DNA from: Phycisphaerales bacterium
Lineage (GTDB): Bacteria; Planctomycetota; Phycisphaerae; Phycisphaerales; UBA1924
Direction of reading: 5' to 3'
DNA: 36,760 nt
NCBI GenBank assembly: GCA_014379385.1
Contig: JACMLW010000175.1
Location: 1 to 36,760 of the forward strand
In this document: positions 582 through 6,116 of the stretch, one piece after another
Numbering within the stretch: the first letter of the stretch is position 1
Layout: each line of letters starts with the position of its first letter
The notes under the pieces: model-generated
Database searches by the model: none
What the model saw: only the letters and a program-made list of their open reading frames with translations
Told to the model about the DNA's origin: nothing
Program-made: the position numbers and the translations under genes

Positions 582-1985
582 ATGGCGAAGTGGAGCTCGA
601 GAACTGCGTCAGGTCTGGCTGCGGCTGCTTTCGTCGTGTCCGGCCTTGGAGTGCCCGCGCCTGCCGGGGCGCAGGAGCAGCAGCCCGCCAATCCCCCGCC
701 CCACGCCGACCCCCAGGCTCACCCCGAGTGCACCGTGGACCTCGCTAATGCCGGGAACTTGAAGGACATCCTGTCGAACGCGCTTATCCGGGGACTGAAA
801 ATCCCGAAGCGAGACGTCGCGCTTTTCCTGGACGGTGCGCAAGACAGGTACGCGAACGGACCGGAACTTCTGAAGGCCGCGGCCGTTCATTTCAAGTTGG
901 CCGAGGATGTTCTGGCCGCAAAAGTCGAGAAGTACAAGCATTGCAACTGCAAGCATCCAGTGCCGAGCGCCCTGCACCCCGATCTCCAGGTGGACCCACA
1001 TCCCCATCCGGAATGCACCATCAACCTTGAGCTTGCCGGGAAAATGAATGATGTCATGTCGAACGCGCTGCTCCTGGGACTAAGCGTCCCGGAGCGGGAT
1101 GTGGTGGCGTTCCTGGATGGCGCGGGGGCGAAGTTCGAGGATGGTCCGGAGCTTTTCAAGGCAGCTGCCGTCCATTTCAAGATGAGCGAAGACACCCTGG
1201 CCGCGGAAGTCTTGAAGTTCAAACACTGCAACTGCAAGCACCCCGGCGGCGGCGAGGCCGGCGGTGAAGTTCAGCAGCGCGATGACGGCCTCCCGGTGTC
1301 GGCGTTCGCCAAGGATGTGACGCTGCACGTGATCCTGCACGAGCTCGGGCACGCCCTCATCCGCGAGTTTGACATCCCGGTTCTCGGGAACGAAGAGACC
1401 GTGGCGGATGCGTTCGCCACCTACTACCTCACCACCCACCTCCCCGATCGCGCCCTCGACGTCCTCACCGCGCGGACCACATCGCTGATGATCGAAGCGG
1501 GAGAGGCGGCGGGGATGAGGGTCGACTGGGGCGGTGAGCACGATCACGATGCCCGCCGCGCGAACCAGATCGCCGCGCTCGCTGTCGCGGCCGATCCGGT
1601 GAAGTACAAGCAGGTGGCCGACATCGTCGGGATGTCGGAGAAAGACATCGAGGATGCGCGGGACTACGGCGGCGAGATCCGGCGGTCGTGGCGTCGCGTG
1701 CTCGGGCCGCTCTGGATGCCGGAGGGCGCCACCTCCGCCGAAGCGCGCGTCATCTACGACGACGGCAGCGCGTTTCTCATTCGCCTGTGCGAGGATGGAC
1801 TGGCGAGCGAAATCGACACGGCCATTAAGGGCTTTGACTGGCACTCGCAGGTGACGATCCGCTTTGTCGATGGCGATGGTGGCGCTGGGTGGAACCGCTC
1901 CGGCCGGACCATCACCGTTCACAGCGCGTACGTTCGCAGGTTTATCCAGCAGGGAGGCCGCGGCCTGCCCGCCCGCTCGAACTGA
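582..1985 (+). CDS. Secreted DUF4344-like zinc metalloprotease with a duplicated Cys-containing module
   Basis: The protein has about 467 residues. An N-terminal signal peptide (basic start, Ala/Val core, cleavage near AGAQ) points to export. A Pro/His-rich linker leads to two copies of a ~78-residue module, spaced exactly 95 residues (285 bp) apart. Each begins HPECT, carries RDV-FLDGA and GPEL-KAAAVHFK, and ends KHCNCKHP. The C-terminal half carries HELGH (near residues 253-257) followed by EETVADAFATYYL, the arrangement of DUF4344 putative metallopeptidases, with His, His and a downstream acidic residue as likely zinc ligands. ATG 582 is preferred to ATG 576 because GGAG at 570-573 lies 8 bases before it and only 2 before the other. 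The module was not recognised. Protease activity is inferred from the motif. Confidence 0.8.
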   Translation: MAKWSSRTASGLAAAAFVVSGLGVPAPAGAQEQQPANPPPHADPQAHPECTVDLANAGNLKDILSNALIRGLKIPKRDVALFLDGAQDRYANGPELLKAAAVHFKLAEDVLAAKVEKYKHCNCKHPVPSALHPDLQVDPHPHPECTINLELAGKMNDVMSNALLLGLSVPERDVVAFLDGAGAKFEDGPELFKAAAVHFKMSEDTLAAEVLKFKHCNCKHPGGGEAGGEVQQRDDGLPVSAFAKDVTLHVILHELGHALIREFDIPVLGNEETVADAFATYYLTTHLPDRALDVLTARTTSLMIEAGEAAGMRVDWGGEHDHDARRANQIAALAVAADPVKYKQVADIVGMSEKDIEDARDYGGEIRRSWRRVLGPLWMPEGATSAEARVIYDDGSAFLIRLCEDGLASEIDTAIKGFDWHSQVTIRFVDGDGGAGWNRSGRTITVHSAYVRRFIQQGGRGLPARSN

Positions 1986-2247
1986 GACCGGCTCCGAGTT
2001 GCAGGTGTTTAGATCCCGGCTGCGGACACCCTCGCGCCACGAGCCGGGACGAGTACAGATGCCCGAGAGTGCGCCTGCGGGGGATGCCCGTCTGGTCCGC
2101 GGGTTGTGCAGGGTCCGGGGGAGCATCGGTGAAGATGGGATACTCCGCCGAGCAGGCCAGCAAGATCGAGCGGACGATCGAACTTTGCGAGCGTGAGAGG
2201 CGTTGAGAGCGGCAAGCAGTCAGGCAGTCGGAAAGCGTCGCCCCACC

Positions 2248-2769
2248 ATGACCGGAACCTACTTGATGGATGTTGAGGATGATCCGACGACCAAGGGGGA
2301 GGGGGGGCGGCCTCTCCACGATCCGGTAGCCGAGGTGCTGGCGTTCCTGAAGGGCCGCTCAGTCCCCTGCCCGCGCTGCGCCTACGACCTTCGCGATATC
2401 CAGACGGCCAGGTGCCCAGAGTGCGGAGAGCCGCTGGTGCTCAAGATCGGCTCGCCGCGGGCGCGCTTCGGATGGCTGGTGCTCGCCATGGCGCCCGGGT
2501 GCTTCTCGGGCGTCGCTGCGCTGTTCGTCTTGATTCCAGTCTACATGCACACCAGGTACCCGTCGCCCGCGGCCAAGGGCGTGTGGGCGGTCATGGTTGC
2601 CGACGCGTTCGGGTTCCTCAGCGCGGCGTCGGTGGCGCTGATGTACCGGCACCGGCACCGGTTCATGTCCTGGACGGCGCGCCGTCAGGCCGCGTTCGCA
2701 GGGGCAGTCTGGGGAATCCACGTCCTGGTGTTTGTGCTGATCCTTCTCGCTCTGTGGTATTCGCAATAG
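2248..2769 (+). CDS. Zinc-ribbon membrane protein
   Basis: About 173 residues. An acidic N-terminus precedes a four-Cys zinc ribbon, CPRCAYDLRDIQTARCPECG, a form common in planctomycete proteins of unknown role. Three or four hydrophobic segments follow (starting at GWLVLAMAPG, VWAVMVADAF and VWGIHVLVFV), so the ribbon probably sits in the cytoplasm at the membrane face. ATG 2248 was chosen for its reading sense. It has no clear ribosome site, and ATG 2266 or the upstream TTG at 2203 are possible. Function is unknown. The ribbon may bind a protein or nucleic acid partner, but nothing in the sequence decides this. Confidence 0.7.
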   Translation: MTGTYLMDVEDDPTTKGEGGRPLHDPVAEVLAFLKGRSVPCPRCAYDLRDIQTARCPECGEPLVLKIGSPRARFGWLVLAMAPGCFSGVAALFVLIPVYMHTRYPSPAAKGVWAVMVADAFGFLSAASVALMYRHRHRFMSWTARRQAAFAGAVWGIHVLVFVLILLALWYSQ

Positions 2770-2821: not shown

Positions 2822-4006
2822 TCAGTTGGTTCCCGGCCAGCCTGGAAAGAGGAAGCGGCCATCGTGGTGGAAGAGTTCGCCATCGGCGTGGATTGTGCCG
2901 CCCGGGTTGCCGGGGAACGCCGCGCTGGGTCGGAGGTCGCAGACGATGTCCCAATGCAGGGCGGACTCGTTGGAGTTGCCGGTCTCTGGGTAGCCGGCGC
3001 CGAGCGCGAGGTGGAACGTGCCGCCGATCTTCTCATCAAAGAACGCGTTCTTCGAGAAGCCTTTGAGGGCGTAGTTCGTGCCGATGGCGATCTCGCCGAC
3101 GTTGCGCGCGCCGTCATCCTGGTCGAGGAGCTTGAACAAGTAGTCTTGGTTCTTGGTGGCGCTCGCCTCGACCACTCGGCCGGCGATGAACTTCAGGCGC
3201 ACGCCCTCGACTTCCTTGCCGCGGTAGACCGCGGGGAAGGTGAAGTTCACGACGCCATCGACGCTTCGGGGGCCGGTGAAGACCTCGCCGTCGGGGAAGT
3301 TCTGGCCGCCGATCCCGGCGCAGTTCACCCAGGTGCGCCCGCCGACATCGACGGTGAGGTCGGTGCCGTCATGCGGGCGTTGGTTGTGGGTTCCGTCGCA
3401 GGCGGGCGCCTGGAATCGGAGCGTGTGCTTGCTCTGGAGGTACTCGATCACCTTCTGCTGCTGGTCGTGGAGCGTGCGCCAGGCCGCGATGGGGTCGGGG
3501 AGGTGCAGGAACCCGGCCTGGTACACCCAGTCGGCGTAGTCGGTGAGCGACATGTCGGCGTCCTGCGCGGCGGCGTTGCTCGGGATCTCGGTGAGCACGT
3601 AGCGGACCTGTCCGGCGGCCGCGCGTTGCAAGGACATGGTGAGGAGCGGCCGTCGCGCCGCCTGGGCGATAGTTGCCCGATGGGGGTCGATCCGGCCGAG
3701 GAACTTGGTGTTGGTCGGATAGATCAGCACGATCAGAACGTCGCAGGTGGAGAGGCGGTGCTTCTCGAACGGGCAGACGTGCTGGAGTTGATTGTCGCTG
3801 CCGTGGCGCAGGAGCAGTTCCTGGAGGGCGTCGCTTCGTGGGTGGAAGCTCGGGTGGCCGCCCGCGCGAAGTGTTGCCTCGAAGGTGGCTTCGACCGCGG
3901 GGATGGCGCCGGGCTCGGCGACGATGGTGACGAGGTCGCCGCGCTTGACGGCGGTGCAGTGGCGGACGAGCATTTCGGCGAGTGTGTCGAGTCGTGGGTC
4001 GCGCAC
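2822..4006 (-). CDS. M29-family aminopeptidase (aminopeptidase T-like)
   Basis: About 394 residues, the usual length of thermophilic-type M29 metalloaminopeptidases, which remove N-terminal residues from peptides with a two-metal centre. The N-terminal domain starts RDPRLDTLAEMLVRHC and contains KRGDLVTIVAEPGA. The C-terminal half holds the expected metal-ligand region: VGEIAIGTNY, then FFDEKIGGTFHLALGAGYP, then HWDIVCDL, supplying Glu, His, His and Asp. GTG 4006 is chosen because it gives the normal family length and N-terminus. The frame stays open to 4375, but that would overlap the next gene on the other strand. No strong ribosome site is visible. It is divergent from the esterase gene at 4221. 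Confidence 0.85.
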   Translation of the reverse strand: MRDPRLDTLAEMLVRHCTAVKRGDLVTIVAEPGAIPAVEATFEATLRAGGHPSFHPRSDALQELLLRHGSDNQLQHVCPFEKHRLSTCDVLIVLIYPTNTKFLGRIDPHRATIAQAARRPLLTMSLQRAAAGQVRYVLTEIPSNAAAQDADMSLTDYADWVYQAGFLHLPDPIAAWRTLHDQQQKVIEYLQSKHTLRFQAPACDGTHNQRPHDGTDLTVDVGGRTWVNCAGIGGQNFPDGEVFTGPRSVDGVVNFTFPAVYRGKEVEGVRLKFIAGRVVEASATKNQDYLFKLLDQDDGARNVGEIAIGTNYALKGFSKNAFFDEKIGGTFHLALGAGYPETGNSNESALHWDIVCDLRPSAAFPGNPGGTIHADGELFHHDGRFLFPGWPGTN

Positions 4007-4220
4007 GGGAAGGAGTCTACGAGAGGAGTCGAGTACGCGGTGAGTGGGAGTCGGCGCGAGGGAGGTCGGGGGTTGGCGTGATGAGGCGTGGGGGAATACA
4101 ACAGGGGAGGCGCGATAACCAGAGCGCCGCAAATCTCGTGTCGCAATACCTGGCCGCGAGACTCGTTCCGCTTGGCGGTGACCCGACCGATGAATCTGGT
4201 GTGACGATGGAGGTGCATTG

Positions 4221-5141
4221 ATGTCCGTGCTCGTGCGAATCGTTGGGGTGATGCTCGCGTTCGTGCAGGTTGCGTTGACGCAGGTGCCGCCGACGGCCGC
4301 GGGAACCGTTGAGTCAAGTCCGCCGGCGGAGACCGAGAGGGCGCAGCCTCGCGGCGGCTCCGGACTTGAACGCATGGTCTGGACTGTGGAGAACCAGGAG
4401 CGGATCGCCTTGCTCCACGTCCCGGATGCGGCGGCGACGGCTGAGACGCCGGTCGTGTTCGCGTTCCACGGTCATGGCGGGAGCGCCCGTCAGGCATCGC
4501 GTTCGTTCGCTATGCACACACATTGGCCCGAGGCGATCGTGGTGTACATGGAGGGGCTGCCCACGCCCGGCGCCCTTACCGATCCGGAGGGGAAGAGGAA
4601 CGGATGGCAGAAGCGCGAGGGGCTCGAAGGGGATCGCGACCTCAAGTTCTTCGACGCGGTGCTGGCCACGCTGAAGAAGGAGTACAAGGTCGATGCGCGG
4701 CGGGTCTACGCGATGGGGCACTCCAACGGCGGAGGGTTCACGTATCTGCTGTGGCAGACTCGGCCGGACGTGTTCGCGGCGTTCGCCCCGTCGGGGGCCT
4801 TCACACTGCGGGCGCGAAGCCTTGCCCCCAAGCCGGCGATGCACATCGCGGGCAAGAAGGATCCTCTGGTCAAGTTCGAGCATCAGGAGCGAACGATCGA
4901 GGCGATCAAGAAGGCTAACGGGTGCGCGGCGAAGGGGGAGGCATGGGCGGAGGACTGCACGATCTATTCATCGAAAGGGTCGTCATCGACGGCTCAGGAG
5001 GGAGACGCCACGCCGCTCGTGACGCTCGTGCATGAGGGGGGCCACAAGTATCCGGCCGAAGCGCCGGCGCTCATCGTGAGGTTCTTCAAGGGACAGGCGA
5101 AGACGGCGGCGAAAGAGGTTGAGGCAAGCTCGACGAAATGA
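4221..5141 (+). CDS. Secreted alpha/beta-hydrolase, PHB-depolymerase/feruloyl-esterase type
   Basis: About 306 residues. A hydrophobic N-terminus followed by a Pro/Ser-rich stretch suggests export. The fold signature is clear: oxyanion segment FAFHGHGGSARQ, nucleophile elbow GHSNGGG (Ser near residue 168), a likely catalytic Asp in GKKDPLVKF and His in HEGGHKYP. This matches the LpqC/PHB-depolymerase esterase group, whose members cleave esters of polyhydroxyalkanoates, feruloyl sugars or acetylxylan; the substrate cannot be read here. ATG 4221 has GGAGGTG at 4209-4215, an excellent ribosome site. A TTG lies directly before it. The gene converges on rsmH with about 45 bp between stops. Confidence 0.82.
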   Translation: MSVLVRIVGVMLAFVQVALTQVPPTAAGTVESSPPAETERAQPRGGSGLERMVWTVENQERIALLHVPDAAATAETPVVFAFHGHGGSARQASRSFAMHTHWPEAIVVYMEGLPTPGALTDPEGKRNGWQKREGLEGDRDLKFFDAVLATLKKEYKVDARRVYAMGHSNGGGFTYLLWQTRPDVFAAFAPSGAFTLRARSLAPKPAMHIAGKKDPLVKFEHQERTIEAIKKANGCAAKGEAWAEDCTIYSSKGSSSTAQEGDATPLVTLVHEGGHKYPAEAPALIVRFFKGQAKTAAKEVEASSTK

Positions 5142-5186: not shown

Positions 5187-6116
5187 TTACGTCAGCCGTG
5201 CCCACCTCAGCTTCGCCGAACGGGAGCGCGGGTTAGTGCGCTGCTCGGTCTCATCGGCGATGATCGGGTCGCGGGTTTCTTCCGAGTAGATGCCGGCACG
5301 GAGGCCGTCGCGGAAGGCGTTCTTCACGCGGCGGTCCTCGCCGGAGTGGAACGTGATGATCGCGGCGACGCCGCCGGGCTTGAGCACGTCCGGCAGGATG
5401 GTCAGCAGGCGATCGAGGTTCGCCAGCTCTCGGTTGACGAGGATGCGCAGGGCCTGGAACGTCCGCGCGGCGGGGTGCAGCTTGGCGCGGGCGGCGCGCG
5501 CAAGCGTGAAGTCGCGAGCCTCGCAGATGATGGCCATCAGGTTCTGTGTGGTCGTGATCGGGCTCGCGGTGCGGCGCTCGACGATGAGCCGGGCGATCCG
5601 CGGGGCGTCGGTCTCGTCGCCGAGTTCGAGGAACGCGGCGGCCAGCTCGCTCTCGCTCATTGTGTTGACGAGCGCCGAGGCGGGCCGGCCGCGGGTGGGG
5701 TCCATGCGCATGTCGAGGGGTCCGGGGCGGCGGTAGGAGAAGCCGCGGGCGGGGTCATCGATCTGGGTGCTGGCGACACCGATATCGGCGAGGATGGCAT
5801 CGGCGCGGCCACCTTCGACGCCTGCCTGCGCGAGGACGCCCGGCAGGCCGGCGAAGTTGCTGTGGAAGAGGTCGAACTTGCCGCCGACCCAGCGGAGGCG
5901 TTCCGTGGCTTTGGCGATGTTGGCGGGGTCGAGGTCAAGGCCGATGAGGCGGCCACCGGGGTGGATGCGCGGGAGGAAGGCCGCCGAATGCCCGCCAAGA
6001 CCGAGCGTGCAATCGACAACGACGTCGCCGGGCTTGAGCGCGAGGGCGCGGAGGGCTTGCGGGAGCAGGACGGGGAGATGATCGCGGGCGTGTGGGGCGG
6101 CGTCTGGCGCGGTCAA
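5187..6116 (-). CDS. rsmH: 16S rRNA (cytosine-1402-N4)-methyltransferase
   Basis: RsmH (MraW) methylates N4 of C1402 in the ribosomal P-site using S-adenosylmethionine. The 309-residue length is typical. Visible motifs are HLPVLLPQAL at the N-terminus, DCTLGLGGHSAAFL and GLDLDPANI (SAM-binding Rossmann), DAILADIGVAS, RGFSYRRPGPLDMRMD and, near the end, ITFHSGEDRRVKN (usually FHSLEDR). The start appears to be TTG 6116 with no clear ribosome site, so it is uncertain. In most bacteria rsmH follows mraZ in the division and cell-wall cluster. Here no mraZ, ftsL, ftsI or mur gene is near, in keeping with the broken-up cluster of planctomycetes. Confidence 0.93.
   Translation of the reverse strand: MTAPDAAPHARDHLPVLLPQALRALALKPGDVVVDCTLGLGGHSAAFLPRIHPGGRLIGLDLDPANIAKATERLRWVGGKFDLFHSNFAGLPGVLAQAGVEGGRADAILADIGVASTQIDDPARGFSYRRPGPLDMRMDPTRGRPASALVNTMSESELAAAFLELGDETDAPRIARLIVERRTASPITTTQNLMAIICEARDFTLARAARAKLHPAARTFQALRILVNRELANLDRLLTILPDVLKPGGVAAIITFHSGEDRRVKNAFRDGLRAGIYSEETRDPIIADETEQRTNPRSRSAKLRWARLT

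Follow-up and report, generated by a model that had tools for sequence, protein, structure and literature searches.

A DUF4344-family protease, most likely circularly permuted, with two copies of a planctomycete Cys/His module

The gene at positions 576-1985 of the window (the whole stretch of 36,760 nucleotides from a Phycisphaerales bacterium that was analysed) encodes a protease that is most likely a circular permutant of DUF4344 (PF14247), preceded by two copies of a Cys/His module. The best explanation of the whole protein, to which we give about an even chance, is an exported, permuted DUF4344 metalloprotease of the gluzincin type with two docking or anchoring modules. The features of the gene and its product were as follows.

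576-1985, + strand: whole coding sequence, 469 amino acids (ORF list and translation)
576-671, + strand: likely Sec signal peptide, residues 1-32, ending ...APAGA before QEQQ (sequence by eye; pLDDT <50 for residues 1-47)
729-956, + strand: module copy 1, residues 52-127 (C....H-C-N-C-K-H), four predicted helices (self-comparison, profile search, AlphaFold2)
957-1013, + strand: linker between the modules, mostly of low pLDDT (AlphaFold2)
1014-1241, + strand: module copy 2, residues 147-222 (self-comparison, profile search, AlphaFold2)
1242-1295, + strand: linker from module 2 to the protease, residues 223-240, mostly of low pLDDT (AlphaFold2)
1308-1703, + strand: DUF4344 core, profile positions 89-220, residues 245-376 (Pfam)
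1338-1352, + strand: HELGH, probable zinc-binding and catalytic motif, residues 255-259 (H255, E256 and H259 invariant in 14/14 rows)
1392-1412, + strand: EETVADA, probable third zinc ligand region (E273, E274 and D278 invariant in 14/14 rows)
1743-1964, + strand: permuted part, residues 390-463, with a strand, a helix, three strands and a helix (profiles, alignment, AlphaFold2)
1836-1847, + strand: DWHS, residues 421-424, invariant in the subfamily (14/14 rows)

The GGAG at 570-573 was spaced better from an alternative start, ATG 582, than from ATG 576. Judged by eye from its N-terminus, the window protein is probably exported. The EETVADA region presumably supplies a zinc ligand, as in zincins. 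In the source assembly (92.75% complete, 227 contigs), this was the only gene found with DUF4344 or the module.

The protein is a probable gluzincin-type zinc peptidase of the DUF4344 family, as judged from its sequence. PF14247 matched with an E-value of 1.9e-19 and 70.8 bits, against a curated cut-off of 29.6, and the HExxH motif and the downstream EE..D motif of DUF4344 were invariant in 14/14 aligned relatives. The preliminary description, which had named a DUF4344 protease with HELGH in an exported protein, is thus borne out, export being read by eye. Only profile positions 89-220 were matched, so that the linear layout over the whole profile 1-220, which is usual in the family and is not a curated criterion, was absent. 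Since the positions before 89 correspond to the C-terminus in the relatives, and weakly so in the window protein, the latter is described as a circularly permuted variant. Nothing meaningful beyond DUF4344 was obtained from the Pfam, NCBIfam, PADLOC and PHROGs scans; weak matches to SNAP (E 0.0011, 19 bits against a cut-off of 25), PADLOC peptidase_U41 (E 0.0033) and phrog_1233 (0.0025) were set aside, those to peptidase_U41 and phrog_1233 being confined to the HExxH stretch. Foldseek and VIA-align gave no significant match of the protease to a solved structure, and such sequential aligners handle permutants poorly. The best fold-search result for the protease (Z 3.9, 101 residues, 4.0 Å) was taken as a common helical arrangement, and the best PDB sequence profile match had an E-value of 0.94.

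The two modules open with HPECT at 720 and 1005, spaced exactly 285 bp apart, and both close with KHCNCKHP, in agreement with the preliminary description, whose two copies stand and whose module length of ~78 residues becomes about 80. Compared without gaps, the copies were identical at 51 of 81 residues. At the DNA level they were 71% identical over 243 bases, and 36 of the 70 differences fell at third codon positions, the pattern expected for two copies under protein-level selection. AlphaFold2 placed the helices of copy 1 at residues 59-73, 78-91, 95-105 and 110-120, and those of copy 2 similarly. With a pLDDT of about 88-97 in the helices of both copies, the module is predicted to be a separate four-helix unit, and the linkers, modelled at low confidence, resemble disordered stretches. 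The Cys-bearing ends of the module were modelled less confidently, the blocks that contain them having a pLDDT of 73 and 57 in copy 1. In the full-length model (pTM 0.54), the contacts between the domains were not fixed. No Pfam or NCBIfam family matched the copies above cut-off, and this result together with the separate predicted units upholds the earlier view of a distinct module. Weak matches of the module were KorB as the best PDB sequence profile match (E 0.06) and, for the module region of L058, HTH_28 (E 0.00088) with two more, all below cut-off. The best fold-search result (MtlD, Z 4.9, 67 residues, 3.5 Å) was again taken as a common helical arrangement.

Conservation in the module family was assessed in 26 copies collected by a pattern requiring the end Cys and HxNC, and is therefore partly the product of that pattern. 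Cys1, His71, Asn73 and Cys74 were invariant in all 26; the pattern left out one known module protein, the degenerate L067, and the fair count is hence 26/27. His76 was present in 24/26 copies and replaced by Asp or Val in the other two. The first Cys of the CxC, Cys72, occurred in 16/26 copies and was Val or Ile in 10/26, so that the CxC is not the conserved core. Accordingly, of the paired CxC with flanking His that had drawn attention earlier, the second Cys (Cys74) and His71 proved conserved and the first Cys did not. Cys1 and Cys74 were the only cysteines in 7/26 copies. Cys41 was found in 3/10 copies without Cys72 and in 0/16 copies with it; the third thiol may possibly swap between positions 41 and 72. 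In L067 (one case, from a draft genome), the Cys and His residues of both module ends were lost together and the middle was retained, which suggests that the two ends form one site.

The module was common among the closest relatives of the protein. It was present in 15/16 distinct planctomycete-type DUF4344 proteins sampled, with two copies in the window protein and one in the others, and L010 was the only one without it. These 16 proteins, 15 of which came from Planctomycetota or related genomes while L016 is recorded as from an uncultured bacterium, had been retrieved via the protease or the whole protein and not via the module. Genes recovered twice (L017, L019 and L053, the same as L003, L004 and L011) were counted once, and L022, which contains masked bases, was excluded from alignments and counts. 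L058 (genome G650) also carries two module copies. The copies within a protein were identical at 47/76 positions in the window protein and 46/76 in L058, but at only 37 to 41 between the two proteins; the doublings thus look independent or homogenised. L024, from an alphaproteobacterial genome, had no module, and none was seen in the eight permuted Pseudomonadota ORFs (L024, L025, L042-L047). A profile of the module gave matches in at least 16 of 392 Planctomycetota genomes; 15 were clear after the match in G241 (E 0.0065, two stops) had been dropped as spurious. On whether the module occurs alone or beside other DUF4344 genes, a point raised in the preliminary description, no free-standing module was found among the 15 clear genomes: it was N-terminal on a permuted DUF4344 protein in 6 and C-terminal on a second protease family, here called HESVH, in 9. 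None of 249 Pseudomonadota genomes matched the module profile in a search run without a positive control, so that this empty result shows nothing. Viral contigs held no relatives of the protein or of the module.

The second family (L059-L067, L080, L081) is a planctomycete HExxH family with the signature SSVVGTDFDFI...HESVHAAWD...GEDLAES and, where complete, an exported-looking N-terminus. It was found in at least 11 of 384 genomes; nine of these members bear the module and two (L080, L081) do not. The genome counts of this survey, which scored no more than 6 candidates per genome, are lower bounds, like those of the module survey, where the limit was 14. The module was C-terminal in all carriers (9/9), the copy of L067 being degenerate and that of L063 being cut by the contig start. 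Among the HESVH members scanned, neither Pfam nor NCBIfam gave a match above cut-off, and their catalytic domain showed no detectable kinship with DUF4344 (profile comparison probability 0.4, E 0.14). The Cys/His module is therefore what the window protein shares with 9/11 members of this family, though at the opposite end of the chain. By eye, L059 and L062 have a hydrophobic C-terminal segment after the module. L081 (genome G564) ends in two dockerin-like repeats, also seen by eye, at the place that the module usually takes. At the end of L066 (ORF 793-2667, minus strand), an extra domain (CGLTFEVYLCALL...HSAIFVNW) follows the module; it resembles an NlpC/P60-type hydrolase by eye, and Pfam returned nothing for it.

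The computations show the duplication, the module as a family with its two protease contexts, the permuted order in the Pseudomonadota relatives and the kinship of the window protein with these; export, zinc and proteolytic activity, and closure of the module by a disulfide or a metal are inferred. The best reading of the module, and the most conjectural part of our account, is a mobile docking domain. Itself without catalytic function, it would dock or anchor exported proteases at a surface or partner, and its duplication would increase avidity. Its change of side between the two proteases, the hydrophobic C-terminal segment of L059 and L062, and the dockerin-like repeats of L081 favour anchoring over inhibition. 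Dockerin and anchoring domains on secreted enzymes offer an analogy, since they too are small add-ons of exported enzymes, repeated here, whose position can change; the module differs from dockerins, whose calcium-loop repeats Pfam recognises, in matching no Pfam family at or above cut-off and in being a predicted four-helix unit of its own. Within the module, Cys1 and His71-x-Asn73-Cys74-x-His76 would most likely form one closed site, either a disulfide or a metal site.

That alternative at the site leads to metal binding, a serious rival to the docking reading, though a rather unlikely one. The modules would then be metal-binding units (Cys1, His71, Cys74 and His76, CCHH-like) which act as a zinc buffer, hand zinc to the protease or signal metal to it. 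The retention of Cys1, His71 and Cys74 in 26/27 copies and of His76 in 24/26, the joint disappearance of the Cys and His residues of both ends in L067 with the middle still in place, and the attachment of the module to an HExxH protease in all 15 clear cases are consistent with it. The replacement of His76 by Asp or Val in two copies speaks against it, and a disulfide would explain just as well why an exported protein keeps a pair of cysteines.

An inhibitory prodomain or cysteine switch, which would mask the catalytic zinc until removed, appears quite improbable. In DUF4344 proteins the module does lie N-terminally, ahead of the helix with the active site, and it does have conserved Cys and His residues. 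A cysteine switch stands N-terminal to the protease that it blocks, as the module does in the window protein, but in 9 of the 15 genomes the module was C-terminal, on the HESVH protease in all 9 carriers. This switch of side between two proteases argues against a prodomain, as do the absence of the module from L010 and L024 and the low-confidence linkers in the AlphaFold2 model. The early suggestion that the module keeps the protease inactive is thereby made unlikely; among the three roles proposed in the preliminary description, to tether a partner is the favoured guess. Equally, we think it very unlikely that Cys72, or Cys41 in its place, cross-links one module with the other, or a module with a partner, as a redox or covalent tether: both window modules have Cys72, and its distribution relative to Cys41 would fit such a role, but the 7/26 copies with Cys1 and Cys74 only do not.

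Returning to the docking reading, a broader proposal may be made tentatively. A private planctomycete attachment domain (four helices, Cys1 plus HxNCxH) might independently mark two exported metalloprotease families that are not related to each other, a permuted zincin and the HESVH family, and direct both to the same partner or site on the surface; the permutation might have freed the chain start beside the active site for attachment.

The circular permutation of the protease was absent from the preliminary description. Profile positions 1-88, left unmatched in the window protein, directed attention to its C-terminal 93 residues, of which residues 390-463 are the proposed equivalent of the canonical DUF4344 N-terminal part. 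The clearest cases of swapped order came from Pseudomonadota. In G254, the alphaproteobacterial MAG of L024, a 267-residue ORF matched profile positions 71-220 (E 8.4e-36) and, further downstream, positions 3-81 (E 4.7e-13), the second match extending two codons beyond the ORF stop. DUF4344 was detected at an E-value of 1e-8 or better in 24 of 249 Pseudomonadota genomes surveyed, where linear matches (L028, L029 and others) coexist with swapped or core-first ones (L025, L026, which is the gene of L024, and L042-L047). In five of the swapped or core-first cases the distance to the contig start exceeds 360 kb, which makes contig-edge artefacts unlikely. A profile of the canonical N-terminal part, built from 16 canonical proteins with the permutants left out and used with Z set to 1000, matched downstream of HExxH in 8/8 Pseudomonadota permutants (E 1.1e-5 to 6.4e-12), which had been preselected because their Pfam matches were swapped or began with the core; upstream of HExxH in the same eight, it found nothing (E 40 or more). 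L050 had been removed from the canonical set because it has no HExxH. This permuted-looking DUF4344 relative (genome G262, ORF 1471-2673, minus strand) matches profile positions 6-68 at its C-terminus and reads EFHIS at the likely place of the motif; from its sequence, it is probably a catalytically dead member.

Direct matches of the planctomycete proteins were weaker. The window protein matched the canonical N-part profile downstream with an E-value of 0.66; among the 16 planctomycete-type proteins the downstream matches were individually weak (best 0.018), yet they scored above the upstream ones in all 13 proteins that scored both. In profile-profile comparison, the Pseudomonadota C-part (7 proteins) matched the canonical N-part with probability 98 and E 4.3e-14, and the planctomycete C-part matched the canonical N-part with probability 30 and E 5.6e-4 and the Pseudomonadota C-part with probability 6.8 and E 0.0053; the module controls gave probabilities of 0.3 and 0.7 (E 0.23 and 0.085). 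The window C-terminus alone had no Pfam match, and a rearranged concatenate of the window protein carried the Pfam match no more than five positions further, to position 84.

Kinship with the permutants was seen by other routes. The window protein aligned with a linear model of 7 Pseudomonadota permutants over model positions 6-228 of 242. Of the 17 test proteins (the 16 planctomycete-type ones and L024), 13 aligned with this model through the C-terminus and 4 stopped at about position 155. Shuffling of the C-terminus lowered the window score by 10.6 bits on average, and 0/200 shuffles reached the native score; the same held (0/200) for 9/17 proteins, and in the other 8 between 3 and 67 of 200 shuffles did so. 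L024 was 40% identical to the window protein over residues 241-463 (E 3e-48). As its C-terminal part matches the canonical N-part (E 1.1e-5) and resembles that of the window protein, homology can be carried across to the latter. AlphaFold2 modelled the protease domain alone as one domain (pLDDT 87.6, pTM 0.88), in which the core helices are followed by a strand, a long helix, three strands and a helix; in a zincin, strand and helix elements like these should come before the HExxH helix. The domain would thus start just before the HELGH helix and end with the strands and helix that come first in ordinary DUF4344 proteins, its C-terminus closing the same fold as there, and its N-terminus would bear the two four-helix modules on flexible linkers. 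That the C-terminus is instead an unrelated lineage-specific extension of a truncated DUF4344 protease is highly improbable: the weak direct scores of the window protein and the weak planctomycete profile scores speak for it, but the alignment with the permuted model, the shuffling test, the single-domain model, the clear permutants in G254 and other Pseudomonadota and the continuity through L024 all speak against it.

In a tree of the core, the 16 planctomycete-type proteins formed one clade (99/97), with L024 as its sister (98/93). The best tree did not unite the permuted proteins in one clade and needs 4 changes of order; a single clade was not rejected (p-AU 0.241, with long branches). Nine plasmid records matched the core (Rhizobium 5, Azospirillum 3, Vibrio 1), and three that were examined had the canonical order; with a permuted protein from Pseudomonadota as query, plasmids gave no match at an E-value of 1e-20. 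Compared with DUF4344 as catalogued, the window protein shares the HExxH and EE..D motifs and core positions 89-220 above cut-off; it differs by its swapped halves, its added N-terminal modules and a divergent permuted part, with DWHS and GGAxWxR, where others have the canonical N-part. With the permuted Pseudomonadota proteins it shares the permuted order in one chain; it differs from the eight ORFs in having modules. DWHS and the residues A437, W439 and R441 (the GGAxWxR stretch) were invariant in the 14/14 aligned relatives, and the canonical DUF4344 proteins examined have other letters there; these residues perhaps have a role with substrate or metal.

The genes that follow in the window were these.

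2203-2769: membrane-like protein with CxxC pairs, zinc-ribbon matches only below cut-off
2822-4375, - strand: M29 aminopeptidase
4218-5141: S9/DLH-type hydrolase
5187-6116, - strand: RsmH/MraW

In the stretches of flanking sequence covered for the relatives, nothing recurred besides ORFs that overlap the gene, and no conserved operon was seen. In the literature, DUF4344 is among the domains named in a legend that deals with type IV secretion effectors used to kill bacteria (PMC6536674) and is tabulated beside 'electron transport chain' (PMC12828279), each source being covered in part. The part of PMC3482391 covered has passages on HExxH and does not contain the words 'circularly permuted'. No description of a permuted DUF4344 protein was found in the portions of the open-access literature searched, a scope that leaves subscription journals outside.

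The protein points to circular permutation as a natural event in a zinc-protease domain. It was seen in two phyla, and in family databases it appears as a partial or split match. Permuted DUF4344 proteins offer a ready test of whether the order of strands and helices matters in the folding of zincins. The module, for its part, provides a handle on how planctomycetes, with their unusual envelope, might place their secreted enzymes.
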